64,000 bases of DNA from a virus: positions 62,001 through 126,000 of IMG/VR virus record IMGVR_UViG_3300032087_002150, one strand, 5' to 3'. The position numbers and the translations under genes are program-made. The notes below the pieces were generated by a model. It was not told the origin of the DNA. It saw only the letters and a program-made list of their open reading frames with translations, and did not search any database. Positions 2,236 to 31,544 of the stretch are shown here, piece by piece (the first letter of the stretch is position 1; each line of letters begins with the position of its first letter).

Positions 2236-2647
2236 TGTCTTTCCTCAATGATAACTTTTCTAAACTAATTTTATCTTTCGCCGACATAACGTATGCCGCT
2301 ATTGCCAAAATAAGAATACCGCCACTCTCATAAATTATATTCAAAGGTTCAGTGCCTTTGGTTTGTAGTATGATCATACGAGTCAATGCTGTCATCGCAA
2401 TGATCAATGGGAGTGTTACTGGTAGTCTATGGTCTTTATAGAAGGCACCAACCATGCCCAATATCTCAGCGTAGATAAAGAGTAGGAAAAGGTCAGCAAG
2501 ATCCATCCTACCCTGTGTTGTGAACATACTGATGATATCGTATACAGCCGCCCAGACCGTACCTGCTACAATGAAGAGAAGGAGTGCCTTCTCAATATGC
2601 ATGATGCCTTCACCGACACCATGTTTAATCTTATTTTTACTGATCAT
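2222..2647 (-). CDS. psiE: PsiE-family (phosphate-starvation-inducible) membrane protein
   Basis: The protein is 141 residues from ATG 2647, with a later ATG at 2602 as an alternative start with a good GAAGG. It has four predicted membrane helices and the PsiE-type pattern: an acidic/Tyr-rich segment LFLLFIYAEILGMV, then a helix with TALTRMIIL. The length matches PsiE (about 136 aa in E. coli). PsiE is an inner-membrane protein of the Pho regulon with no known activity. In this phage it sits between mazG and aceA with overlapping frames, consistent with a starvation-response set. Confidence 0.72.
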   Translation of the reverse strand: MISKNKIKHGVGEGIMHIEKALLLFIVAGTVWAAVYDIISMFTTQGRMDLADLFLLFIYAEILGMVGAFYKDHRLPVTLPLIIAMTALTRMIILQTKGTEPLNIIYESGGILILAIAAYVMSAKDKISLEKLSLRKDNEEA

Positions 2648-2933
2648 CGTCTTTAACGAAAACACCATCGACCATACGACCTGTACGATCTTTGATGTCA
2701 TTCCACGCGTGGTGCAAACACTCTTCCAAGTTTGTGCCATTACGTTCGGCAATATTTATAAGGACTACCATACAATCTCCGATGTCGTCTTTGATATCTT
2801 TGCCCTTACATACGTTGTCGCTCAACTCACCGACTTCCTGAATCAGTTTACATACCTGATCCTTGTCAGTAGCACCATTGATCAGATTACGATCGTGATG
2901 CCAGCGAGTTACCATGTGAATCAACTCTTTCAT
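2637..2933 (-). CDS. mazG: MazG-like nucleotide pyrophosphohydrolase
   Basis: The 98-residue protein carries the all-alpha NTP pyrophosphatase pattern: IQEVGELSDN followed by KDDIGDCMVVL, giving the ExxE...ExxD-type metal-binding set. MazG-like enzymes hydrolyse (d)NTPs to monophosphates. In marine phages they have been linked to nucleotide recycling and to host stringent-response control. Single-domain length is typical for phage members. It overlaps the GT2 gene before it and the PsiE-like gene after it. Confidence 0.8.
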   Translation of the reverse strand: MKELIHMVTRWHHDRNLINGATDKDQVCKLIQEVGELSDNVCKGKDIKDDIGDCMVVLINIAERNGTNLEECLHHAWNDIKDRTGRMVDGVFVKDDDQ

Positions 2934-3688
2934 AGTTTTTCCTCATACCAGTCAAAGTCTATAAATGTTTTATCCTTCCAAGTTTCTGGATGTTTATTGC
3001 GTTCCCTCGCCATCTCTAATAATTCTTCAACCCCGTCCCAAGTATGAGGATGATAAATGAAATGATCATCATACTCAGTTTTTTCCTGCCCTTCTACAAC
3101 TCTGATTTCTCTACCATATCTGGTTGGACCAATACCCGAACCATCAAGCATCACTCTCTCATATTTCGTCATCAACCTTTCAACGAAAACTCTTGAACCG
3201 CCATGTATGTTTACGAACTCCTCGTCATATCCACGAGTCGCTAGGAAATCTTCCTTGCGAATAACATAGGAGTTGTACTCTACAGGTTCTTCTTTTCCGC
3301 CAGCAAGAGGAGATGCAAACCACATACCTAAAAACTGATTCTCTTGAAGGTTGGGTATGGCGTCTCTTATAAGTTCGATGTTTTTCTTGTCAACTGCTAT
3401 GTCAACGTCAACCAGGAACACCCACTCATTACTTGCCTGTTGTACACCGAGGTTGCGACAACCGTGTCCATTGAACCCGAGATTCTCAGCAACACGCAAC
3501 ACTCTAAACTTACAGTGAGGAGGAACTATCTGTTTCTTGAGGTGCTGCCTCACAATATCTTTAGCATTTTCTACTTCAGATCCATCGTCAATGATAATAA
3601 CTTCGTCAACCAAATCAAAGCAGTCTTGAGACAAATACCTTGTCAACTGCTTCTCATCTTCGAAGTATGGTGTTACTATCGTTAGCAT
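2930..3688 (-). CDS. family 2 glycosyltransferase
   Basis: A GT-A fold glycosyltransferase of 252 residues. The N-terminus LTIVTPYFEDEKQL, the nucleotide-sugar loop IIIDDGS, the block GFNGHGCRNLGV and the metal-binding DVDIAV are typical of GT2 enzymes. Acceptor and sugar cannot be read from sequence. It is paralogous to the gene at 13711-14445 (GFN.HG.RNLG shared). It directly follows a methyltransferase gene with no gap, so the two may build or decorate one glycan. Confidence 0.8.
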   Translation of the reverse strand: MLTIVTPYFEDEKQLTRYLSQDCFDLVDEVIIIDDGSEVENAKDIVRQHLKKQIVPPHCKFRVLRVAENLGFNGHGCRNLGVQQASNEWVFLVDVDIAVDKKNIELIRDAIPNLQENQFLGMWFASPLAGGKEEPVEYNSYVIRKEDFLATRGYDEEFVNIHGGSRVFVERLMTKYERVMLDGSGIGPTRYGREIRVVEGQEKTEYDDHFIYHPHTWDGVEELLEMARERNKHPETWKDKTFIDFDWYEEKL

Positions 3689-4228
3689 TTAATCTTTTAT
3701 CCACCACCAAACGGGTCCATTCAATCCAAAAGGATGTCCATATTCTGCCACTGATTTAGCAACTCCTGGGAACTTATCGCCATAGTCGTCGCCGGAAACC
3801 AGTCCACCCTTCCTTACTTTAGGGATCCATGCTTTCATATCGTCAAGCACAGCAGGATACTGATGCGAGGCATCAATGAATATGAAGTCTAGAGATTCGT
3901 CCTGGAAATCTTTCGCGGCATCCAAACTCAATTTTCGAATTAAATGCGCTCTATCTTTCGCACCCGCTTGGAACGTGATCCAATTTTGTAAGTCCAGATA
4001 ATACCCATAGTTGACACTTGTTTTATCTTTTTCGAGATCTTCTGAAGTTGATCCATCCCAGCGCACATTTTTTGTCGACCAAATATCAACACCATAAAGT
4101 TCTAGACCTTCACACTTACTGATTAAATGTTTGAACGTAGTTCCTTGTTGAACGCCAATTTCTACGCCAACTTTGTACTTATTTTCTTTAATCATTTTTT
4201 CTAAAAAGTTAAATCTCGCCATTATCAT
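3689..4228 (-). CDS. class I SAM-dependent methyltransferase-like protein
   Basis: The 179-residue protein has the Rossmann methyltransferase layout: motif I VGVEIGVQQGTTF, the acidic strand end LYGVDIW, and the motif IV-like LDFIFIDASHQYPAVLDDM. This matches the Methyltransf_24 type often found with glycan genes. It shares the segment SLDF.F.DA...W.PKV..GGL.SG with the gene at 19352-20014, so the two are paralogues. ATG 4228 overlaps the stop of the primase-like gene (ATGA) with GAGG just upstream. The substrate is unknown. Confidence 0.75.
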   Translation of the reverse strand: MIMARFNFLEKMIKENKYKVGVEIGVQQGTTFKHLISKCEGLELYGVDIWSTKNVRWDGSTSEDLEKDKTSVNYGYYLDLQNWITFQAGAKDRAHLIRKLSLDAAKDFQDESLDFIFIDASHQYPAVLDDMKAWIPKVRKGGLVSGDDYGDKFPGVAKSVAEYGHPFGLNGPVWWWIKD

Positions 4229-5327: not shown

Positions 5328-5941
5328 CAATATTCCAAGAAGGCGATAGCATTACAGTCTTTACCCTGACTGTATGGTTGGATGTAACTTATCTCCCATC
5401 CAGAGTTTCTCGCCGCTAGAAGAACATCTGGTTGATCAATGTTATCTATCAACAATTGCTTCACGCCAAAATCTAAACAACATTTCAAATCAATAACAGT
5501 ATTTTGATATGTGTGCGCGCCATCAATCAAGGCGAAATCAAACGGAGCGGATTTGTCTAGATCAGAGTACGCAAAAATTGTTCGTTGACTAACCCAGTTA
5601 AATCTATCGCCATACTTTTCTTTCATTACCTTTGCCATCATCGCTCTAGTATCTGCTGTGTGTTTTTCTAAATCCTCCGGAACCTCGCCCTTTATTTTCT
5701 TCTTTTGCCTTTCTAAAACATGCTTGGCAACAGATTCATAACCAGGACTCACTGTGGTAACTTTTGCTTGTTTAAAGATTTCAAGTAGGTACGTTGTAGA
5801 GTGACCAAGATGAAATCCTATCTCCAGTATGTTTGTAGGTTCCCACCTGCCTTGTATTTGTTCAAAGAAATCAAAAATATGATTTGTTGGAGGCAAGTGC
5901 CCCCAACCATATTCGAGTTCAACTAGATGATCTAAGTTCAT
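5327..5941 (-). CDS. class I SAM-dependent methyltransferase-like protein
   Basis: 204 residues with motif I NILEIGFHLGHSTTY (about 38-52) and a motif IV-like FDFALIDGAHTYQNTVIDL. These identify a Rossmann-fold class I methyltransferase of the Methyltransf_24 type. The substrate is unknown. It overlaps gp43 by 4 nt (ATGA), so it is probably co-transcribed with the DNA polymerase. It is the most divergent of the three such proteins here. Confidence 0.7.
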   Translation of the reverse strand: MNLDHLVELEYGWGHLPPTNHIFDFFEQIQGRWEPTNILEIGFHLGHSTTYLLEIFKQAKVTTVSPGYESVAKHVLERQKKKIKGEVPEDLEKHTADTRAMMAKVMKEKYGDRFNWVSQRTIFAYSDLDKSAPFDFALIDGAHTYQNTVIDLKCCLDFGVKQLLIDNIDQPDVLLAARNSGWEISYIQPYSQGKDCNAIAFLEY

Positions 5942-8457
5942 GCGAAAAAATCTTCAAGACTTACTGACTCTTCTTCTTTCCAACCTATCGCCTCAAGCAC
6001 AGGTCGTACCACTGCCAGGAATGCCTTTTCAAACTGCTGTTCATAATCTATGTATTTATGCAACCCAAACTCCTCGGGAAGGAAATCGTAGAAAGCAATG
6101 ATGTTTTCCTTGATAGGGTTCTTTTCGTCAAGGTAGAGAAACTTAATCTTCTCCCCGTCCTTGATTATATTATACCTGCGATCCAATCCTTTGTCAAGCA
6201 ATAGTTTGTTATAAAGCAGAGATCCGCGCACGTGAATGGGGCAACCCTTTTTGTAGATTTCCTTCGCGTCTCTCCACTTACCAACGTCAGATACTCCGCG
6301 AGGAAAGGCAATCTCGTGAGGATCAAGATTGATGAAATGTTCCTTGAACATACGAATAGAGTTTTGCGTTTGCTTTTCAGTTCCCGATATCATGACAGAA
6401 AACAATGCCTTCAAGGCATCACGACAAGAGGCGGGAGTGGATGACTTGACTGCCTCAATACCCATGATCTTTAGTTTGGGTTTGGCATACTGTACACCCT
6501 CGCTGTTATGTACGTTGAGGATGTATCGCTTCTTCGCTGTCCAGATACCTGCGTCAGCGATTACCTCGCGACCCATTACCATCTTGTTCTCATATGCGTT
6601 CATGTACTCGGCAAGTTCATTGTACGATCGCTCGAACAGGGGTTCAAACTTTTCCTCGCCAATCTGCGACAGGATCTGTACAGTCTGATCTGTATCAGTC
6701 AGTCCCATCTTCTCAACGAGAGGACCGAAGTTAACATACACCGAATCAGTGTCAATCGCGATAACGTAGTCAACTCCTTCGGTCTCCAATATCTTGTTCA
6801 TGTATTCGTTGACTGCCTTCTCTGCCCAACGGATAGACAACTGACCTGACATCGTAATCGCTTCTGCCATGCGAATGTCATAGTAACGAAACCAGCGATT
6901 ACCCAACCCACCATAAAGTGAGTTCATCATAATCTTGATCGCCATTTGTTGAGTATCAAGTTTGGTCACCATCTTCGAGGCACCTTTATCACCCTTCTCA
7001 ACTTGAGATTGTAGTCCAAGCATATGCTTCTTTATTTGTTTACGCTCGGCATACAGACCATCAATCACTGCTGGTAGAACACCACGGAAGTCTTTGGAGA
7101 AGTGTACACCGTTGGCGGCGATACAGTCATGCGGCGACTTACTATCGGGTCTCTCCCGAGCGAGGCAGTTATCAACAGTGACACCAGAGGTGCGTGTACT
7201 CACGATAGTCTCAGGCGACATATTATACTGCATGATCAGGTGAGGATACAGACTGTTCAAGTCAAACGAGATAACCCATGAGTGACGACCGATATGCGGT
7301 GCCTTCACATAACCACCACCGAAGTCAGTTTTCATATGTTCTTTCTTGGGCGGCACGACGATCTTGCGTTTACACAGTTCGCGATAGATGTAGGTATCCC
7401 ACAACTGCGTAGTCCCGAATGCTTCCTGATAGTTACAACCACCCTTGTACGCGATAGTCATAGCAAGGTCAATCAAACCCATCTTCTCGTCGATGCGCTC
7501 GACCAACTGGACGTCTTTGATGTTGTAGTCGATAAACTTCTGATAATCTTCCTTGTACAGCGTGTACAGATTACCGTGCTCCTCGTAGGATAGTTTCTTC
7601 TCACCGAGTACAACGTTCGCGATATGATCCAGCTTGTATGACTCCTGTACGCCATACGAGTACACGCCAAACTTTTGAAAGAGATCCCAGTAATCTAGTT
7701 GCTCAATGCCGACCAACTCATAGACCTGCTGCTTTCTACCCTTGAGACTGATTACTTTTTCTCGAACGATACCCCATGGCGACATCTTCTTGAAGGCATC
7801 GCCGCCCAGTATATTGTTGACTCGATTGACAAGATACGGGATATCAAACAGTCGGACGTTCCAACCTGTTACGACATCGGGACAGGTATCTTTACCGTTC
7901 CAGAAACCAAGGAACTTGAGGATGAGATCTAGTTCGCCATCGCACTTGATAAACTTGATATGTTCAGGAGCAACGTCGATCTGAGTTTTCTCAGGATCAT
8001 ACTTGTCTTCAAGTGCCCAGATGAAAAAGTCAGGGCGACCATGATACTTGAGACAGATAGATTGTACTTCTTTTTCTGCTCGCTCAGGTTCAGGGAATCC
8101 GTCATCGGACTCAACCTCGATGTCGATGTTAGCAACGAGAATCTGAGCAGGGTCGTACGATATTTCGTTGGGATAATGCTTCTGTATGTACTGAGCGGCA
8201 AAGTTATTGTTACCGTGTACCTCAACATTATCTACGTTGTCATAGTTCTTCCAGAACTCAGTTGCCTCGGACAACGTTTCAAACTGTACCTCAGACACGC
8301 AACGACCGTCGAGCGTCTTCCACTCGGAGTCTGGTTTATTTGCGGGGAGATACATAACAGGTTTGAAGGTGTCGCGATACTGCTTGCGTACACCGTTCTC
8401 GTATCCTCGGTAGCAAATACTGTTACCGATACGAGAAATATTAGTATAAAACTTCAT
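5938..8457 (-). CDS. 43: DNA polymerase, family B (T4 gp43)
   Basis: The replicative polymerase, 839 residues (T4 gp43 is 898). The 3'-5' exonuclease domain shows NIDIEVESDD (Exo I) and later Exo blocks. The polymerase domain shows motif A SFDLNSLYP, motif B KIMMNSLYGGLGNRWFRY and motif C IDTDSVYV, all intact. The extreme C-terminus is SVSLEDFFA. T4/RB69 polymerases carry their sliding-clamp-binding peptide at this position. The same nine residues end the glycosyltransferase at 24590-25399. A sigma70-type promoter lies just upstream. Confidence 0.97.
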   Translation of the reverse strand: MKFYTNISRIGNSICYRGYENGVRKQYRDTFKPVMYLPANKPDSEWKTLDGRCVSEVQFETLSEATEFWKNYDNVDNVEVHGNNNFAAQYIQKHYPNEISYDPAQILVANIDIEVESDDGFPEPERAEKEVQSICLKYHGRPDFFIWALEDKYDPEKTQIDVAPEHIKFIKCDGELDLILKFLGFWNGKDTCPDVVTGWNVRLFDIPYLVNRVNNILGGDAFKKMSPWGIVREKVISLKGRKQQVYELVGIEQLDYWDLFQKFGVYSYGVQESYKLDHIANVVLGEKKLSYEEHGNLYTLYKEDYQKFIDYNIKDVQLVERIDEKMGLIDLAMTIAYKGGCNYQEAFGTTQLWDTYIYRELCKRKIVVPPKKEHMKTDFGGGYVKAPHIGRHSWVISFDLNSLYPHLIMQYNMSPETIVSTRTSGVTVDNCLARERPDSKSPHDCIAANGVHFSKDFRGVLPAVIDGLYAERKQIKKHMLGLQSQVEKGDKGASKMVTKLDTQQMAIKIMMNSLYGGLGNRWFRYYDIRMAEAITMSGQLSIRWAEKAVNEYMNKILETEGVDYVIAIDTDSVYVNFGPLVEKMGLTDTDQTVQILSQIGEEKFEPLFERSYNELAEYMNAYENKMVMGREVIADAGIWTAKKRYILNVHNSEGVQYAKPKLKIMGIEAVKSSTPASCRDALKALFSVMISGTEKQTQNSIRMFKEHFINLDPHEIAFPRGVSDVGKWRDAKEIYKKGCPIHVRGSLLYNKLLLDKGLDRRYNIIKDGEKIKFLYLDEKNPIKENIIAFYDFLPEEFGLHKYIDYEQQFEKAFLAVVRPVLEAIGWKEEESVSLEDFFA

Positions 8458-12520: not shown

Positions 12521-12756
12521 CAGTGTATAGTATCCTCAATATATGGTTGAGAAAGCACCCACTGTACATCGGGCAACATACGGTATGTGAAATGAGAACC
12601 GTAGATATCCTCAACCTTTATCAATTCTTCATGAGTAAAGTCTCGCATCAATCTATCAATTACAAGTTGCTGTACTTCAGTAGCGAGGGAATCAACTTTT
12701 AATCTTACGGATTCCACGTCGCTGTCAGTAAAATCGTAGTCAAACAAACTCGACAT
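12520..12756 (-). CDS. conserved-looking small protein, 78 aa
   Basis: It starts inside the 3' end of gp44 (17-nt overlap), and its stop touches the metzincin start. The product is acidic. It begins MSSLFDYDF, which loosely resembles clamp-binding peptides (RB69 polymerase ends in a similar SLF.xF pattern), but here it is at the N-terminus. No family recognised. Its position beside the clamp loader suggests a replication or late-transcription accessory role; this is inference. Confidence 0.6.
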   Translation of the reverse strand: MSSLFDYDFTDSDVESVRLKVDSLATEVQQLVIDRLMRDFTHEELIKVEDIYGSHFTYRMLPDVQWVLSQPYIEDTIH

Positions 12757-13678
12757 TCGCCATCATCTCCGTTAAACAAGCAACCATATTTAGTTCCGCA
12801 TCAGCAACGAACGCTGCCTTGTATTGATAATCCGCAAGGATTAGAACCAACTGAGGAATGCTGTTCGGCGCAACATACTGAGTCATAGCATCATAGATGC
12901 CACGGAAAATAGCAGCGGACTCAACGTCCATGTTATTGGCAACCCATACCCGCATGTTCTTGAAGTCTTTTTCTTTGATATAGGAAAACAACTCCGCGAT
13001 ACTTTCGCTGTTTGACTTACTGAGAACATCCAGTTGAAGTTCGCCGCCACGAGAGTGACGCTGAAGTTCGTTGATGATTCTTCGCCAGTCAGGAGCGTGA
13101 CGCATAATCAGTTCGGCGAGAACTTTTCCGTTATCAAGTTTGACGTTCTCTTGATCCAGAATAAACTTCGCTCGCTTCATAAACTGTTCGCAAAGTTTCG
13201 CCATGTCTTTCTTGCTGGTGTTAAACTCAATCACACCACAACGAGAATGGAGAGGTTCGATGATCTTGTTCTTGAAGTTACAAGTCAGAATGAATCGACA
13301 GTTCTTCGAGAACTCCTCGATAAACCCACGGAGAGCAGGTTGGGTTGACTGTGCATTCAGATAGTCTGCCTCATCAAGGATACATACTTTGTACCCGCCT
13401 GACAAGGAAACACTGGAAGCGAACTGTTTGATCTTACCACGGAGAGTGTCGATATTACCAGACTCCGAAGCGTTGATCAAGATATAGTCAAGGTCAAGCT
13501 CGTTACAGATAGCACGAGCAACAGTAGTTTTGCCAAGACCAGCAGTACCAGTTAGCAACATGTTCGGCACTTCGCCAGTGCCCACAATCTCTTTAAACTG
13601 TGCCTTCAAGTGATCTGGAAGGATACACTCATCAATCGTCTTCGGACGATACTTCTCAACCCACAATGATTCAACCAT
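12740..13678 (-). CDS. 44: clamp loader large subunit, AAA+ ATPase (T4 gp44)
   Basis: 312 residues (T4 gp44 is 319). The Walker A GTAGLGKTT (about 44-52), Walker B VCILDEADYL (about 97-106), sensor I ILTCNFKNKI and the arginine-finger block HSRCGVIEF are in the clamp-loader order. It begins LWVEKYRPKTIDE, the conserved RFC-like N-terminus. With gp62 it opens and loads the gp45 clamp. A near-consensus sigma70 promoter precedes it. Confidence 0.96.
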   Translation of the reverse strand: MVESLWVEKYRPKTIDECILPDHLKAQFKEIVGTGEVPNMLLTGTAGLGKTTVARAICNELDLDYILINASESGNIDTLRGKIKQFASSVSLSGGYKVCILDEADYLNAQSTQPALRGFIEEFSKNCRFILTCNFKNKIIEPLHSRCGVIEFNTSKKDMAKLCEQFMKRAKFILDQENVKLDNGKVLAELIMRHAPDWRRIINELQRHSRGGELQLDVLSKSNSESIAELFSYIKEKDFKNMRVWVANNMDVESAAIFRGIYDAMTQYVAPNSIPQLVLILADYQYKAAFVADAELNMVACLTEMMANVEFV

Positions 13679-15897: not shown

Positions 15898-15974
15898 TGG
15901 TCGGGGATGCAGGATTCGAACCTGCGACCTTCCGCTCCCAAAGCGGACGCACTACCAAGCTGTGCTAATCCCCG
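15898..15974 (-). tRNA. tRNA-Pro (anticodon UGG)
   Basis: A 77-nt cloverleaf on the minus strand. The acceptor stem CGGGGAT pairs with ATCCCCG. The anticodon arm TCCGC-TTTGGGA-GCGGA places TGG as anticodon. The T arm has GGTTCGAATCC, and the 3' ACCA is encoded. It closely follows the bacterial proline tRNA pattern. Its first 10 nt overlap the 3' end of the halogenase gene, so halogenase residues IGD and the stop are encoded in the acceptor stem. Confidence 0.95.
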
Positions 15975-17407
15975 ATTTGATACCTTATAAAATCTCCGTG
16001 GGGCAAGCAATCTTGCCTCATACTATAAACTTGCTGTTTCCTATGATTGTAAAATAGGTTCGCCTCTTCAGATAGGTCTAATATTTGAAGATAGTTTTTA
16101 ACAGCATCCTCACTTATCATACCGAGACCGTTAGCAACTTGCAAGTATCCATGCGAACCGAAACTTGTAATGTTAGAAACAACGTCAAAATCTTTTTCCG
16201 TCAACATAGTATACTTTAATTGTTCATGAAAAGCAACTATCCATTCCGGAGTGGACTCATCCATGTATCGCCAAAAGTCAGTGTCAGTTCTTCTTGTATA
16301 ATAATGAAAACGCAAGAAGTCTAACACTTCATCAAACATCAGGCGACATCGTTTATTGTACATCAACCTTTGATAGGATAGGTTGTCATGTAACAAACAA
16401 TCTGCTAGAAGTTCCGCTTGAATAATGGTAGACTGTATTGTAGTCGCCTCTAATGGTTCAACGAATCCGCTAGAAAGTCCGACTGTTATACAGTTACTGA
16501 TCCACTGTTCTTCAAGATACCCAACCTCAAAGGGCACGACTCGCCCATCAACTTCCTTGCCAACTATTCTGGTGAGGTCATCCATCGCCTCATCATCTGA
16601 CAGGAACTTATCTGAATAGATGTAACCGTTACCGTGTCGATGCTGTAACGGAACTCTCCACATCCAACCATTACCAGTTGCCTCTGCTAGAGTGTAGTTC
16701 GGCAAATCATTCATATCCGCTTCGGTTTGAAACGCGATAGATCTATTGTTTGGTATTAGGTGAGTCTTGTCAATATAGGTTGGATCGAAGTTGTCAATTA
16801 ATAATCGGGAGAATCCAGTGGCATCAATGTATACATCACCAACATGTATTGAACCGTCCTCTAACTCGATACCAGAAATCAATCCATCATAACTTACGAT
16901 GACTTCTTTCAACACCCCATCAACTATCTTGAGGCAATCGGAGCATCTCTTTTGTACATACTCCCCGAACTCAAATGTGTTGATGTGAATAGCATAGTGA
17001 TCTAGATGCGGCGAGCACATTCTACGATCAGTATAATATTCATCGATGCCTACACCAGAAAATGTTGACTTGTTTAGTTTACTGGCGCAGTAGAGTAGGT
17101 TCAACCCAGGATAACTGTTATGATCATCAAACTGTTTGAAGTTGTGATAATAATAAGAACCGTCGTTTAACCAGTTCTTGAACTTAACACCATACTTGAT
17201 GGTGCTATTAGTATTTTCTAACAGATCCTGAGTTGATATTCTTACACGATTAAGGTAAGAATGAATGGCAGGGGTGGTACTTTCGCCGACCCCAATACCT
17301 TTGTTAGAATGGTCGTAGATAATCGTGACATCATAACCAGAGCGAGCAAGAAAAGTTGCTACGATACTCCCGCTGGTTGATCCACCTACAACTACAACCT
17401 TCTTCAT
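15965..17407 (-). CDS. flavin-dependent tryptophan-type halogenase
   Basis: 480 residues. FADH2-dependent halogenases form HOX and pass it by a lysine to an organic substrate. Seen here: N-terminal nucleotide-binding [12 protein letters not shown], the family motif [10 protein letters not shown] (39-48), a conserved Lys region [10 protein letters not shown] (70-79), the halogenase WxWxIP motif as WMWRVP, and FVEPLEATT with the usual catalytic-site Glu. Related halogenases occur in marine cyanophages, for example VirX1 of phage Syn10, shown to halogenate with an iodide preference. The substrate here is unknown. The stop lies inside tRNA-Pro; DUF6445 lies downstream. Confidence 0.9.
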
Positions 17408-18529: not shown

Positions 18530-19204
18530 TTATTCTCCATAAGTTGAGGATGGTTCGAGTGCTACGATATATTTGATATCTCCAGTATCTTTCTTCCACT
18601 CGGTGATCATTTTACTGGAAATAGAAACCTCATAGTCGCCCTCAATCATTTTAAGATTGCCGATGTTCGCGACAAGTTTAAAATCATCAATGTCAGATGA
18701 CCCAGGAACGATGAGGTCAAATGAGTTAGAAGTTGGATCAGTCACATCTACAACTGACAACTTGATGCCGTTCTCACTTGGCAGGATACTCATTTTCTCA
18801 TGACCGAGAGCGGATGCTGCTCGGCGAAGTCGATTCAACGTAGTTGAGTTGATATTAAACTTAGCAACTTCATCAGGCAAGGTGATCGACTTTTCAGTGA
18901 AGGTAAGGATCTCCTCAGAAGCATAGTAATACTTACAACTGTTGAGTCCAGTCCCGTCTGAAACTACCAGATGATCGTCATTGAAAGTTAGATGATGATC
19001 ATCCAAGATACTGATTACTGACAAGAACTCTCCCATATCATAAAGACCGAATCGCTTAGGGAAATCCTGATCTAGAGTTGCTTCCGCGAGAATACTTTTA
19101 CCGCCAGATAGACTGTTCAAGGTATTCTGTTCTCGGATCAACATGTTTGGATTAATACTCGCAAAGTTCTGAAGAACCTTTAAAGTGTTTTCATTGAGTT
19201 GCAT
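18530..19204 (-). CDS. 45: sliding clamp (T4 gp45)
   Basis: 224 residues from ATG 19204 (T4 gp45 is 228); GGAG lies 6 nt before this second of two ATGs. The N-terminus MQLNENTLKVLQNFASINPNML and the C-terminus IKYIVALEPSS match T4 gp45. The trimeric ring tethers gp43 and, in T4, also couples replication to late transcription through gp55 and gp33. It is the predicted docking partner of the SLEDFFA-type tails found on gp43 and two modification enzymes in this window. Confidence 0.93.
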   Translation of the reverse strand: MQLNENTLKVLQNFASINPNMLIREQNTLNSLSGGKSILAEATLDQDFPKRFGLYDMGEFLSVISILDDHHLTFNDDHLVVSDGTGLNSCKYYYASEEILTFTEKSITLPDEVAKFNINSTTLNRLRRAASALGHEKMSILPSENGIKLSVVDVTDPTSNSFDLIVPGSSDIDDFKLVANIGNLKMIEGDYEVSISSKMITEWKKDTGDIKYIVALEPSSTYGE

Positions 19205-23686: not shown

Positions 23687-23932
23687 TTAGAAATCGAAAT
23701 GCTCAACGCGAGCATATTCAGGGTATTCAGCGGCGAGTTCTTCGGCATGAACCGCATACTCAAAGAAGAAAGTATGCTGATAGTTGTCAGTCCATGTCTC
23801 GAAATGCCATGCTTTTTTAGGCAGGTGTTCTTTGCACCATTCGCGACCTTCAAAGAATAGGTCAGAGTGCAGGTGGCAAGCAGTTCCTGGTCGCCACCTG
23901 AGTTTGTACTCAAAGATTTCTTGAGGTGTCAA
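23687..23932 (-). CDS. small protein, 81 aa
   Basis: ATG 23932 overlaps the stop of the gene before it (ATGA). The product begins MTPQEIFEYKLRWRPG and is rich in aromatic and His residues. No domain recognised. Its stop codon starts promoter module B. Confidence 0.6.
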   Translation of the reverse strand: MTPQEIFEYKLRWRPGTACHLHSDLFFEGREWCKEHLPKKAWHFETWTDNYQHTFFFEYAVHAEELAAEYPEYARVEHFDF

Positions 23933-24498
23933 AGCATAGACTCCAATGAGTTGTGCTGCCAGTCAGAGATACGATCCCATTGAACTTCCCAGAGCATCTC
24001 CTGACCTTCTTCGTCAAACTCGCGTTCTTCAGGGTCAAAGTGCGCTCGAAGTTCTTCATCGTTCTCGAGGCACATGTCGATAAACTCATCGCTCTCAAGT
24101 TCTTCTTGATCTTCCAGACCGCCAGCATCAAAGACTGCGCAACCAATAAAGTTACAGAACTCGTCTTCATATGTCAAGGCGAGGCGAACGCCAGCATCTA
24201 CCACACCAATCTGTTCAGCAAGGTAAGCGCAGAACTCGATACAGGGTGACCAAGCAGAATACATAGACAGACCATACTCATCATGATCTGTAAGGTATGC
24301 CCACTTCGCGCCAACGAGGTCGCACATATTCTCTCGATTCATATCGTCGTAGGAATCAAAGAAAACAAACCCAAGATGCTTCTCACCACCTTGAGTATCG
24401 TCTCGATCCAATCGACCAAGGATTTCGTTCCAAACCTCACGACCCTTCTCATTCAACTCAGAACGGAGACTGAGGTATTGACTCACATGATTTGCCAT
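23929..24498 (-). CDS. acidic protein of unknown function, 189 aa
   Basis: Very acidic, with Glu/Asp runs in the C-terminal third. It begins MANHVSQYLSLRSELNEKG; AGGAGG precedes ATG 24498. There are several Cys but no clear metal motif and no membrane segment. It is coupled to the 81-aa gene after it and heads a transcript from promoter module C. Strong acidity in a small phage protein is sometimes a sign of DNA mimicry, but nothing specific supports that here. Confidence 0.6.
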   Translation of the reverse strand: MANHVSQYLSLRSELNEKGREVWNEILGRLDRDDTQGGEKHLGFVFFDSYDDMNRENMCDLVGAKWAYLTDHDEYGLSMYSAWSPCIEFCAYLAEQIGVVDAGVRLALTYEDEFCNFIGCAVFDAGGLEDQEELESDEFIDMCLENDEELRAHFDPEEREFDEEGQEMLWEVQWDRISDWQHNSLESML

Positions 24499-24589: not shown

Positions 24590-25399
24590 TTACGCAAAGA
24601 AATCTTCTAGTGAAACGGAACTAGACTTTTCGTACTTGCCTCCACTCTTATCTCGTAGACGAAGTTCAGCGTGCCCAGTAGAACTACGAATGTACATAGA
24701 GCAAAGATCTGGAAACATCTCAGCAATCTTGGTGATCGAATCATGCACATATTGCTCAGTCCTTATAGTTTGTAGTCCACCTTCCTCTTTGTAATAGTTG
24801 GACTTCACTGTGTATTTATCAAGGCGGCACAGTACACCGTGTTTCACATACTGTCGCAGACTATACTCATAGTCCTCGCCATGATTAGTTACACGATCAA
24901 GGTATTCATCATGATCACAAATGACGCCAAACATAGAAGCAATGATATAACAAAGTTTAGAGTAGACTCGATCCTTCATAAAGTATGCGTTCGCAGCTGC
25001 GTAGATACCAAAAGTTTTAGCACCGAGTTCCTCACAGTTTTTAAACCCCTGTTCAATAATCTCAGTGTAGAGATCATCAATGGGTTCTAGAGTTTTCTCA
25101 TCCTTCCTACGTTGTACCTGTTCAATGTCGTCATCAAACATCATCAGGTAAGTGCCCTCTGGGTAATACTTCTCAATCCAGTTACGTTGAGCACCGATAG
25201 TCGGGACACCAACTACAATGTTGCCTCCATACTTGTGTCCAGCAAGTGCCTCTTTGTATACTGCTTCCTCTTCTTCATTCGCAACGAAAACAGTAACACG
25301 TTCAGGTGGGATGTTATGTTCCTCAAATACCTTGAACGTCTTATCTTGAATAGTCTTAGATCGTTGGTAGGAAGGGCAGGCGATTTGATAATCAATCAT
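24590..25399 (-). CDS. TAGT-like (TET/JBP-associated) glycosyltransferase with clamp-binding tail
   Basis: 269 residues. The GT-A fold is suggested by IACPSYQRS at the N-terminus, VGVPTIGAQRNWI, and LMMFDDDIEQV (DDD at 89-91, metal and nucleotide-sugar site). TAGT glycosyltransferases, linked by others to phage TET/JBP oxygenases and to base-J synthesis, have this role: adding sugar to hydroxymethyl-pyrimidine in DNA. Here the oxygenase is two genes upstream. The last nine residues, SVSLEDFFA, are identical to the end of gp43 in this window, so docking on the gp45 clamp is predicted. The TAGT assignment rests on motif and context. Confidence 0.7.
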   Translation of the reverse strand: MIDYQIACPSYQRSKTIQDKTFKVFEEHNIPPERVTVFVANEEEEAVYKEALAGHKYGGNIVVGVPTIGAQRNWIEKYYPEGTYLMMFDDDIEQVQRRKDEKTLEPIDDLYTEIIEQGFKNCEELGAKTFGIYAAANAYFMKDRVYSKLCYIIASMFGVICDHDEYLDRVTNHGEDYEYSLRQYVKHGVLCRLDKYTVKSNYYKEEGGLQTIRTEQYVHDSITKIAEMFPDLCSMYIRSSTGHAELRLRDKSGGKYEKSSSVSLEDFFA

Positions 25400-25799
25400 T
25401 ACAAACTCTCTTTCTTAAATCACTAGAACTAAATCGGTGGTCTCTTTTGTTAAAGTATAGATCGATGTCACGTTTGCGACAAATATCTTTACCAGTAAAA
25501 TCTTTATCCCGATACTCTTCGCCGAGGATACGCACGTTGATATGATACATCGCTAGGATATCTTCTAGGTCTGCCTCAGTAGAGTATGGGATAATCTCAT
25601 CAACGTAGCGAACTGCTTTGAGTTGAGTGTATCTCTCGACGACAGTTTGAATAGGTTGATTTTTGTTAGGACGGTCAAGAGTCGGGTCTACCTGTAGTCC
25701 ACAAATCAAATAATCACATTGGTCTTTGGCATCACGAAGCATTTGTACATGTCCAGCATGCAGCAAATCAAAAGCACTACAAGTAAACCCAACTCTCAT
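25392..25799 (-). CDS. cytidylyltransferase-like nucleotidyltransferase
   Basis: 135 residues. FTCSAFDLLHAGHVQML contains the HxGH signature (HAGH), and DHRFSSSDLRKR stands at the place of the RTEGISTS-type motif. This is the glycerol-3-phosphate cytidylyltransferase/HldE-type fold, which makes CDP- or ADP-activated small molecules. It overlaps the oxygenase gene before it and the glycosyltransferase gene after it by 4-8 nt. I infer that it supplies an activated donor for the DNA modification; the donor is not known. Confidence 0.75.
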   Translation of the reverse strand: MRVGFTCSAFDLLHAGHVQMLRDAKDQCDYLICGLQVDPTLDRPNKNQPIQTVVERYTQLKAVRYVDEIIPYSTEADLEDILAMYHINVRILGEEYRDKDFTGKDICRKRDIDLYFNKRDHRFSSSDLRKRVCND

Positions 25800-27220
25800 C
25801 CGAAAAACTCCTCAAGCGAACCTGCTTGTTGGAAAGCATTAGGATGATATTCCATCAACATGGACTTACCACCCTTCTTTTCAAGGTATTCATACCACTC
25901 AGTCTCATCCCACATGCCAGGGGAGACACCATTCCAATACTCGCGCCATAACTTATGCTCTTTGTTAAGTCGGCGGTCATCAACGTATTGTTTACGATAC
26001 GACTCATACTCCCAAGAACCCAACTTATCCATATCCTCGCGGAAGTAATATACCAGAGACATACGCATCAAGTCATCTTCACCTGAGTCGGGTGCTTCGA
26101 TAGGAGTGTTGCCATGGATCACTCGCATGTTATCAACGAGTAGCAGGTCTCCTGGTCGAACGTTGATAGCAACGCGAACCTCTGGACAAACAAGATAACC
26201 ACCCTTCCAGTTTCGCTTACCGTCACTGATCACAGTCAGGTTTGAGAATCCTGGGACGAGCGAACCTTGGTCACGGTGGCATGCCATACGTGCATTACGA
26301 TCCTTGGTGGTTGTGTTCACTGTAATCGTAGTGAAGGTTGTATCCTCGCCGATCAAGAAACGGTTGTCCAATCTATCAGCAAATGCTTTCTGCTTGCTGT
26401 ATCGTTCAGGAAGCAACTCGGCGAAAGTCTTGTCGAGTTTACGAGCGAACGGATATGACTTCTCAAACTTCTCACGGTTGTGGTCAACGTATGAAGTCGC
26501 CCGACCATATGGGATACGTGGGTATCGACCATAGAAACCTGCGATACCTGACCAGATAGCAGTCGCATAAGAAGTATCGGAGATCATGGTATCACGAACA
26601 CGCTGAGCATATATTGATGCTGCATGAATATCTGGAGAATAACCAAGACCCTTGGTCAACTCAGAAAGTCGCACCATTAGTTTCGGAAAGAACCCATCAT
26701 ACTCGCCGAACTCTTTCTCAATAGCAGTCGTCAACCAAACTTCGCCTCTCGCCTGCTCATCGTTGCTGCTTTTAGCAATCTCTTCCAACGGATCAGATCC
26801 GTCGATGCTTGGCGGTTGCCCTTTGATGTACCAATCGAGGACTCTACTTTGAAACGCAGTGACCCACTCGCGACCATATGACTTGCCTTCCCTCGGACCT
26901 GCTGCTAGACCACGATTGTTCGACTCAACTGCTGCGCCATACAACCCTTCAAGAGCACCGTCCTGTTCTTCCTGAGTAAACACACCCTTGCGGAACTTAA
27001 ACGCAATACGATCCTCGTTTAGAGTATCACCTGTCAACGAGTTACTCGGAAGATAAAAATCTGTATCTCTATCAATCAAGATGTCATAGTGTTCCTCGTC
27101 AACAAACTGACCAAGGACTTTGTCTTCAGACTCTATGAAGTTAGCAATGTATACATCTTGACCTTCGTCACCAGTGAACCAGTCCCAAGTGTAGTTTCCG
27201 TGTTTGATTTTTTCGTTCAT
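25796..27220 (-). CDS. TET/JBP-type Fe(II)/2-oxoglutarate DNA-base oxygenase with clamp-binding tail
   Basis: 474 residues. The catalytic double-stranded beta-helix lies at about 295-395: CHRDQGSLVPGFSNLTV (H315, D317), GGYLVCPEVRVAI, GDLLLVDNMRVIHGNTPI (H369) and RMSLVYYFRE (R386 for 2-oxoglutarate). This order and spacing match the TET/JBP family, which oxidises the methyl group of thymine or 5-methylcytosine in DNA. The C-terminus GSLEEFFG resembles the clamp-binding end of gp43. No cytosine methyltransferase is seen in the window, so thymine (JBP-like) is the simpler target; this is inference. It has its own sigma70 promoter. Confidence 0.78.
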   Translation of the reverse strand: MNEKIKHGNYTWDWFTGDEGQDVYIANFIESEDKVLGQFVDEEHYDILIDRDTDFYLPSNSLTGDTLNEDRIAFKFRKGVFTQEEQDGALEGLYGAAVESNNRGLAAGPREGKSYGREWVTAFQSRVLDWYIKGQPPSIDGSDPLEEIAKSSNDEQARGEVWLTTAIEKEFGEYDGFFPKLMVRLSELTKGLGYSPDIHAASIYAQRVRDTMISDTSYATAIWSGIAGFYGRYPRIPYGRATSYVDHNREKFEKSYPFARKLDKTFAELLPERYSKQKAFADRLDNRFLIGEDTTFTTITVNTTTKDRNARMACHRDQGSLVPGFSNLTVISDGKRNWKGGYLVCPEVRVAINVRPGDLLLVDNMRVIHGNTPIEAPDSGEDDLMRMSLVYYFREDMDKLGSWEYESYRKQYVDDRRLNKEHKLWREYWNGVSPGMWDETEWYEYLEKKGGKSMLMEYHPNAFQQAGSLEEFFG

Positions 27221-27256: not shown

Positions 27257-27409
27257 TACCTGAGAATCAACCATTGTAAACTTTTGACTTTTGGTTCGTA
27301 TCTCTAATCCGTTGTATTTATGTTTGATCCCGTTTTCAGTCATTTCCTTAGATAAAGAGGCGAGGTCATTGTACTTCATTGATTTCTTCTTGGGAATATA
27401 TTTCTTCAT
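27239..27409 (-). CDS. small basic protein, 56 aa
   Basis: Found in the gap before the oxygenase. ATG 27409 overlaps the upstream stop (ATGA). The product begins MKKYIPKKKSMKYNDLA and is strongly basic. Its last codons form the -35 region of the next promoter. It resembles the 58-aa protein at 5151-5327 at the first few residues. No function assigned. Confidence 0.55.
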   Translation of the reverse strand: MKKYIPKKKSMKYNDLASLSKEMTENGIKHKYNGLEIRTKSQKFTMVDSQVLTFDL

Positions 27410-27921
27410 TTATTATGTTTCTTTGCACCTTTAAGGTACTCATTACCACAATCAGAATGCGGTCCATTGGCATCAACGTAATGTAAGAAGGATTGGTAAA
27501 CCATACCATCTGGATTAGAATCTCTCCAGTGCATCAATGGGCGGTGGTATACTACTGCGTCACCTTGTTCCATAGCATATGAACCACCATCCCAATGAAA
27601 CTCCCAAGGAGATTTTTCATTGCGAAGGCAAACAGTGACACTGACTTGACAAGCAGGACGATCGCTGTGCTTCTCTAAGGTTTCTCCTACGGAATATATT
27701 CTACAATAGTCGTAAGTTGGAATGAGTTCTAATCCAGTAATAGATTCCATCTTCTCGAGAGAATCTTCTAGTAAGTCCCAGTTTGCACCATAGATTGCCC
27801 AAGAGTTTCTACATTGACCGTCATCAAACTGCATATTTTCTTTCATGCTTTCCATTCTATCTGCGTATTGATTCGCAGTGTCAATGTCCAAGAACCCTTT
27901 TACGACTTGCGCGAGTTTCAT
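27406..27921 (-). CDS. 2-oxoglutarate/Fe(II) oxygenase-like protein
   Basis: 171 residues. EKHSDRPACQVSVTVCL carries H85-x-D87, and VVYHRPLMHWRDS supplies the distal His (H126 or H131), the layout of prolyl-hydroxylase-like 2OG oxygenases. The substrate is unknown. The gene overlaps gp46 by 4 nt and is separated from the TET/JBP gene only by the 56-aa gene. A second oxidation step in DNA modification is possible, but it could equally act on protein. Confidence 0.68.
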   Translation of the reverse strand: MKLAQVVKGFLDIDTANQYADRMESMKENMQFDDGQCRNSWAIYGANWDLLEDSLEKMESITGLELIPTYDYCRIYSVGETLEKHSDRPACQVSVTVCLRNEKSPWEFHWDGGSYAMEQGDAVVYHRPLMHWRDSNPDGMVYQSFLHYVDANGPHSDCGNEYLKGAKKHNK

Positions 27922-30947: not shown

Positions 30948-31544
30948 CTATTCCTCTAGGAATTCTGTGAGGTCTGAGTCAACTTGATATGATTTTTTAC
31001 GATTAGCGACCTTGGTCACTTTCTTATACTCATCAACTGCTTTGTCTTTTTCTTTCACGTCATCAATGCGGCGACGAAGATTATCAACAAAGGACTGCAC
31101 TGCTTTTGCTACTTGCGGATCTTCGTCAGGGTCAACCATAAACTCTTCGATGCCTGACTCAGCAAGGAACTTTAGTTTTACGTCTTGTTGTTTCTTTTCT
31201 TTCTTGATACGACGAATGAACGCAAACCAAGAGATCTGAGTAAAGTATCCGAATGCGTTTGGTTTACCCTTTCTAGTTGCTGCTTCAATGTTGTAGTTCC
31301 CCACAGCATTCAAACAGTTTTCAACTGCGTCCATCACCATTTCTTCACGATAGGTGTATCGGACAAAGTTTGATTTATGCGAAAGACCTTCAGCAATTTT
31401 TAGAAAGCAGCGAGCAATGTAATCGGTAACCATCGGATCGGGTTGATTCTTTTCCCTCGCCTCTCTAACGGTCTTTACATAATCTACGACTGCTTGTGAA
31501 AACTCTTTGTTATTCACATAATGTGGACGTTCGCTCGGTTTCAT
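30948..31544 (-). CDS. 55: late promoter sigma factor (T4 gp55)
   Basis: 198 residues (T4 gp55 is 185). YVNNKEFSQAVVDY, IAEGLSHKSNF, YREEMVMDAVENCL and FIRRIKKEKKQ match T4 gp55 regions. gp55 directs RNA polymerase to TATAAATA late promoters, which are present before virion genes here. The C-terminus SDLTEFLEE stands where T4 gp55 has its clamp-binding SLDFLYE, a weaker version of the same motif. It is preceded by a near-perfect sigma70 promoter. Confidence 0.93.
   Translation of the reverse strand: MKPSERPHYVNNKEFSQAVVDYVKTVREAREKNQPDPMVTDYIARCFLKIAEGLSHKSNFVRYTYREEMVMDAVENCLNAVGNYNIEAATRKGKPNAFGYFTQISWFAFIRRIKKEKKQQDVKLKFLAESGIEEFMVDPDEDPQVAKAVQSFVDNLRRRIDDVKEKDKAVDEYKKVTKVANRKKSYQVDSDLTEFLEE

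Follow-up and report, generated by a model that had tools for sequence, protein, structure and literature searches.

The window analyzed here, a 64,000-nucleotide stretch of viral DNA (bases 62001 to 126000 of the 151,660-base IMG/VR virus record IMGVR_UViG_3300032087_002150), encodes a TET/JBP-type oxygenase and a TET-associated GT-A glycosyltransferase (TAGT), both of which end in a short peptide resembling the clamp-binding C-terminus of the phage's own DNA polymerase, gp43. Judging from the sequences, it is very likely that both enzymes dock on the gp45 sliding clamp through these putative tails. This suggests that phages of a large group may physically couple the disguise of their DNA to its copying.

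Clamp-type tails in the window and its record

The gp43 family B polymerase (positions 5938 to 8457, minus strand; DNA_pol_B, E = 2e-29) ends in ...EEESVSLEDFFA, with the clamp-binding peptide SVSLEDFFA at 5941 to 5967 (T4 counterpart, KASLDFLFG). The TAGT (24590 to 25399, minus strand; 269 amino acids; PF20691, E = 1.1e-16) ends in ...SSSVSLEDFFA, and the TET/JBP 2-oxoglutarate (2OG)-Fe(II) dioxygenase (25796 to 27220, minus strand; 474 amino acids; PF12851 [Tet_JBP], E = 4e-15) ends in ...QQAGSLEEFFG. Their tails, SVSLEDFFA and GSLEEFFG, occupy 24593 to 24619 and 25799 to 25822, respectively. An earlier note on this DNA had pointed out that the TAGT tail equals the last nine residues of gp43 and that the oxygenase ends in GSLEEFFG, and both statements held when the open reading frames (ORFs) and their endings were re-derived. 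The proposed docking partner, gp45, is encoded at 18530 to 19204 (minus strand) and was matched by gp45 of Stenotrophomonas phage DLP6 (phmmer, E = 2e-37) and of RB69 (1b77; E = 8e-16). The late sigma factor gp55 (30948 to 31544, minus strand; phrog_234, E = 8e-51) ends in DSDLTEFLEE, with the tail DLTEFLEE, and its homologues end in DSDLSDFLEE and similar peptides. A clamp-type tail had also been attributed to T4 gp55, whose sequence indeed reads ...SLDFLYEAND.

The identities of the two enzymes are well marked. The oxygenase has the PF12851 signature with H-x-D...H and a 2OG-binding Arg, the active-site residues H315, D317, H369, and R386 are invariant across 31 homologues, and the TET profile also matched a PDB entry of human TET2 (E = 2e-4). 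The TAGT combines a PF20691 GT-A domain with a neighboring TET gene and a DDD motif at residues 89 to 91 that is invariant in 27 homologues. In AlphaFold2 predictions, the TAGT core had a GT-A-type fold with a predicted local distance difference test score (pLDDT) above 90, and Foldseek retrieved generic GT-A relatives only. The last block of the protein had a mean pLDDT of 52 with a short helix at 264 to 268; that of the TET had a mean of 56 with a short helix at 469 to 473. The linkers before the tails are flexible (low pLDDT) and, in alignments, divergent and variable in length, as in T4-type proteins with sliding-clamp-binding motifs. The tails of both enzymes are thus predicted to be appendages outside the fold.

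Across the whole 151,660-base record, a good tail was found only on gp43, TAGT, TET, and gp55. Two further proteins matched loosely. A baseplate-hub-like protein (L011, 9138 to 9869) ends in ELKGLTDFF, and its GLTDFF ending is probably a chance resemblance. A 189-amino-acid protein without a confident family, encoded downstream of the TAGT at 23929 to 24498 and having homologues in L014 and L016, ends like them in a weak version of the motif (HNSLESML, NTLEAML, and ALEAML; SLESML in the record itself).

Conservation of the tails among homologues

Two IMG/VR searches, named phages, and a later TAGT search yielded 73 distinct TETs and 56 distinct TAGTs, which were clustered at 90% identity before tails were counted. 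On contigs with T4 core genes, 28 of 29 TET clusters and 18 of 19 TAGT clusters were tailed. A second set of TETs, picked as neighbors of the amino acid:DNA transferase ADDT and not by their own sequence, was tailed in 49 of 50 cases; this set overlaps the first in part, and its one untailed member is a short frame. By comparison, the rate of gp45-type tails was 0.36% among shuffled C-termini and 0.41% among internal windows (1537 genes). Chance or compositional coincidence might be suspected for so short a motif, all the more because the baseplate-hub-like protein of the same genome ends in GLTDFF, but a background of about 0.4% against 97% of T4-type TETs leaves this explanation with next to no probability, and the shuffles and the homologue survey together rule it out as the source of the TET and TAGT tails.

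The identity of the gp43 and TAGT tails might also be read as a functionless recent copy, or a gene conversion tract, of the gp43 3' end. Seven of the nine codons differ, however, including the Ser codon AGT in gp43 versus TCA in the TAGT, which rules out a recent duplication of the gp43 end and is explained by selection on the peptide. The tail is moreover retained in nearly all T4-type homologues, at identities of 44 to 100%, so a functionless copy is highly improbable. In 31 TETs, the column of Leu469 is invariant and that of Phe472 nearly so, despite a preceding linker that varies in both sequence and length.

Whether homologues lack the tail or carry one unrelated to that of their own gp43 had been named as a check on docking. 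The tail persists down to about 44% identity and resembles that of the accompanying gp43. Examples from single genomes are STLEGFFS/STLEGFFS (gp43/TET), SDLSAFLV/GSLAGFL/SSLADFLV (gp43/TET/TAGT), KADLSSLFD/SDLSKLF (gp43/TAGT of Caulobacter phage Cr30), and ATLDSFFA/ATLGDFFV (gp43/TET of DLP6). In a permutation test of within-genome tail likeness (10 to 14 genomes), P values were 0.014 for gp43-TAGT, 0.011 for TET-TAGT, and 0.09 for gp43-TET; phylogeny was uncorrected, and as the genomes are related and not independent, the test is only supporting.

The tail is not universal in TAGT phages, an idea that was ruled out by its absence from the TAGTs of Aeromonas phages 65 and avDM6, PTm1, Vibrio phage henriette, Acadian, Altadena, and one contig group.

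Two side observations concern the annotation of these genomes. The gp43 gene is divided into two ORFs in contigs G008 (L033) and G009 (L038), the halves being separated in one of them by ~20 bases, with an in-frame TGA, and in the other by ~900 bases, and it is likewise split in Aeromonas phage 65, avDM6, and Vibrio phage henriette. The TET/JBP oxygenases of DLP6 (KU682439), Cr30 (KF301602), and S-CBWM1 (MG450654) are labeled "SNF2 DNA repair protein" in GenBank, which hides them from annotation searches.

Tails on other enzymes of modification islands

An ending scan over 1326 genes, made blind to gene identity, ranked TET, TAGT, and gp43 first, followed by further enzymes of the same islands. 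These carriers include ADDT (PF18724), two kinds of GNAT acyltransferase, a GT-B glycosyltransferase encoded directly after the TET in L038, and a D12 adenine methylase (Dam-like) in C48C1; the TAGT of DLP6 is likewise tailed. In a census of the islands, tails were present on 39 of 40 TETs, all 22 TAGTs, 13 of 14 ADDTs, all 12 GNAT proteins, all 4 gp43s, and 5 of 6 gp55s. No tail was found on gp46 (0/19), gp47 (0/16), amidotransferases (0/10), gp44 (0/9), cytidylyltransferases (0/5), UDP-galactopyranose mutases (0/3), or epimerases (0/3). A larger set of ADDTs contained many looser variants, such as GLEAFY and GLERFT. The tail therefore tracks enzymes whose expected substrate is the DNA polymer and shuns those whose expected substrates are free precursors, a division made by family knowledge and not by assays.

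These distributions bear on the idea that the tail is intrinsic to the TET and TAGT folds, serving oligomerization or contact between the two enzymes, with its likeness to clamp motifs arising by convergence. TET and TAGT do usually co-occur, and in T4-type phages both are tailed. Yet the tail is poorly predicted and lies outside the folded core, the same motif ends gp43, gp55, ADDT, GNAT, GT-B, and Dam-like proteins, TETs keep it in islands without a detected TAGT, and related TAGTs carry either a different ending, QxxLF, or nothing. An intrinsic role is therefore improbable.

Where no TAGT was detected, many T4-type phages have the TET grouped with ADDT, GNAT acyltransferases, a class-II-amidotransferase-like protein, and a P-loop kinase (e.g., L028, 11803 to 14676; L022, 11389 to 16749; and L033, 9545 to 14462). 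Such islands suggest that a TET starts the pathway to bases that are amino-acylated and possibly also acylated. Known ADDT phages, in contrast, use a nucleotide-pool hydroxymethylase route.

Exchange of the tail in loci without detected gp45

In another set of loci, the TAGTs of six clusters end in NQLEIF, NQTQLF, NQETLFS, NQKTLFDMI, NQGSLFNVI, and NQQTLF, and gp45 was not detected on their contigs. One of these QxxLF-ending TAGTs is 53% identical to the TAGT of the window. The C-terminal consensus of the bacterial beta-clamp motif is QL(S/D)LF (PMC9690074), and a C-terminal pentapeptide near it was found in the six TAGT clusters and two methylases of these loci, against a shuffled background of 0.11% for beta-clamp-type endings. 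Among all 347 genes of the loci, only the TAGTs and these two methylase-like proteins (SQQTLF in P12024L and EQIGLFK in L147) had QxxLF-type endings. In L147, the EQIGLFK ending, near the canonical beta-clamp motif, belongs to a DNA-methylase-like protein at 2384 to 3025, and the TET and TAGT of the same contig are untailed.

The complete genome of Nonlabens phage P12024L had no match to PolA, PolB, or gp45, which makes replication by the host likely. Acadian and S-CBWM1 each encode a PolA; the TAGT of Acadian is untailed, and that of S-CBWM1 ends in the ambiguous HELEDLLP. One further contig group has TAGTs with neither type of tail, and a search of bacterial genomes for QxxLF-type TAGTs found none. 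An exchange of clamp motifs on one enzyme family is, on this sequence evidence, hard to explain except by clamp binding, and the host beta clamp is probably the address of the modification enzymes in some phages without gp45.

Proposed mechanism and its alternatives

We propose that the last 8 to 9 residues of TAGT and TET are putative sliding-clamp-binding motifs on a flexible linker, which would fit into the hydrophobic pocket on the gp45 ring encoded by the same phage, where gp43, gp55, gp33, and DNA ligase bind in T4. The gp45 trimer would then serve as a tool-belt keeping the polymerase, the oxygenase, and the glycosyltransferase together on one DNA. Each base of the nascent phage DNA would be oxidized first and glycosylated next, in a processive manner and shortly after synthesis, with a preference for DNA that the phage replisome has copied. 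What was observed is that the tails are present, conserved, distributed by enzyme family, and exchanged; from this we infer that the enzymes bind gp45 physically, act processively, work behind the fork, and select phage DNA. The same tail on unrelated folds, together with the swap to a beta-clamp motif in related TAGTs, points specifically to clamp docking.

Alternatively, the tails may bind gp45 for the sake of regulation, by competing with gp55 and gp33 for the clamp and timing late transcription, or by loading the enzymes on clamps parked anywhere on DNA. We consider this unlikely but worth weighing, since gp45 serves as a mobile activator that leaves the fork by sliding, with gp55 and gp33 sharing the motif (PMC2988020, PMC7892883), and since the contact between T4 alpha-glucosyltransferase (alpha-GT) and gp45 does not set the alpha/beta ratio (PMC13216743). 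However, the tail is found on DNA-acting modification enzymes of several folds and on no precursor enzymes, and the beta-clamp-like swap occurs on related TAGTs in loci that showed no gp55/gp45 late-transcription system; these two patterns point to the modification step itself. Modification of new DNA is probably, although by no means certainly, the main purpose of the tails.

Several observations weigh against docking on gp45 for replication-coupled modification. The TET of Cr30 ends in a degenerate ...GATLF, even though the TAGT of the same phage has DLSKLF. Not every gp43-type phage needs the tail for modification, as indicated by T4 itself and by the untailed TAGTs of the T4-related Aeromonas phages 65 and avDM6, PTm1, and Vibrio phage henriette. 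L039, L064/L065, and L081/L155 are three tailed TET clusters from contigs on which neither gp43 nor gp45 was found, one of these contigs being 54 kb long. P-loop kinases of the ADDT islands have no convincing tail, even though DNA is the substrate of related kinases, and are a possible exception to the rule that DNA-acting enzymes are tailed. In T4, inspection of alpha-GT, beta-GT, and Dam revealed no C-terminal tail, the alpha-GT/gp45 contact is not the main determinant of the modification pattern (PMC13216743), and gp45 is able to leave the fork by sliding, as happens in late transcription (PMC2988020, PMC7892883).

On balance, there is a reasonable case for a clamp-addressing code, in which polymer-acting enzymes of any fold would acquire the tail of the clamp that copies the genome (gp45-type SLEDFF or host beta-type QxxLF) and precursor enzymes would acquire none, so that multistep modification lines would assemble on the clamp. 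Outside T4, few explanations exist for how phages achieve modification that is fast and complete enough against restriction, yet confined to the viral DNA, and a clamp tail would be a simple and testable answer that also provides a sequence signature. If this is true, TET/JBP-TAGT enzymes would be parts of the replisome rather than diffusible, and the T4 alpha-GT/gp45 observation would extend to several enzyme folds. The last eight residues of a protein could then flag DNA-modifying enzymes that are still unknown, as they did here for ADDT, GNAT, GT-B, and Dam-like proteins.

Neighboring genes

Between the TET and TAGT genes lies a gene for a cytidylyltransferase-like protein (25392 to 25799, minus strand; PF01467, E = 7e-14), which is untailed, as are its homologues (0/5), and has a probable role in sugar or polyol activation, as suggested by its family. 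Directly upstream of the TET, an untailed protein at 27406 to 27921 is labeled "ferrochelatase" in PHROGs (phrog_2954) but appears to be another small 2OG-Fe(II) oxygenase. TET/JBP dioxygenases oxidize 5mC or T in DNA. In a search meant to identify the substrate base, neither a C5-methylase (PF00145) nor a thymidylate-synthase-type hydroxymethylase (PF00303) had a match anywhere in the 151,660-base record; a methylase-like match to phrog_2675 is located at 3689 to 4228 of the window. Other genes include the untailed clamp loader subunit gp44 (12740 to 13678, minus strand; phrog_168, E = 1e-115) and a 480-amino-acid protein of the tryptophan halogenase-like phage family phrog_2928 (15965 to 17407; E = 5e-96).

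Comparison with known systems

The tails described here resemble the sliding-clamp-binding motifs of T4 gp43, gp55, gp33, and DNA ligase in being short acidic-hydrophobic peptides that follow a divergent linker and are paired with the phage's own gp45. In T4, the C-terminal motifs of gp43 (...ASLDFLFG), gp55, and gp33 are interchangeable, the gp55 linker is divergent, varies in length, and tolerates changes (PMC2988020), and DNA ligase has a clamp motif too (PMC7892883). Unlike the T4 proteins, the carriers here oxidize, glycosylate, amino-acylate, acylate, or methylate, and their binding is predicted from sequence.

T4 alpha-GT is a close functional parallel, as a phage DNA glycosyltransferase that contacts the clamp and for which replication-coupled modification has been proposed. 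It binds gp45 (Sommer 2004), as confirmed by pull-down (PMC13216743), and clamp-coupled modification therefore has a precedent, although the same 2026 study attributes the T4 alpha/beta ratio mainly to expression (PMC13216743). In contrast to the TAGT of the window, however, alpha-GT is an unrelated GT-B enzyme that ends in FDIITK, without a C-terminal clamp-binding motif; it bound gp45 while carrying a C-terminal His tag, and its substrate, hydroxymethylcytosine, is made at the nucleotide level and not by a TET. The two enzymes may be alike in function, with different modes of gp45 binding.

The window shares the enzymes (PF12851 and PF20691) and gene neighborhood of TET/JBP-TAGT hypermodification systems. 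The earlier note knew of no description of clamp docking in these systems, and clamp tails on TET/JBP, TAGT, or ADDT were indeed undescribed in the literature found, whose coverage was incomplete and did not include Iyer 2013 and Burke 2021; the coupling of a phage glucosyltransferase to the clamp, on the other hand, is not new, as T4 alpha-GT illustrates. The QxxLF ends of TAGTs and a methylase fit the bacterial beta-clamp motif QL(S/D)LF (PMC9690074), which was undescribed on phage base glycosyltransferases in the papers found and is so far known here from only six TAGT clusters. Outside phages, DNMT1, a eukaryotic and unrelated enzyme that maintains a methyl mark and does not install a hypermodified base, is tethered to PCNA by a short motif and acts on new DNA (PMC9690074).

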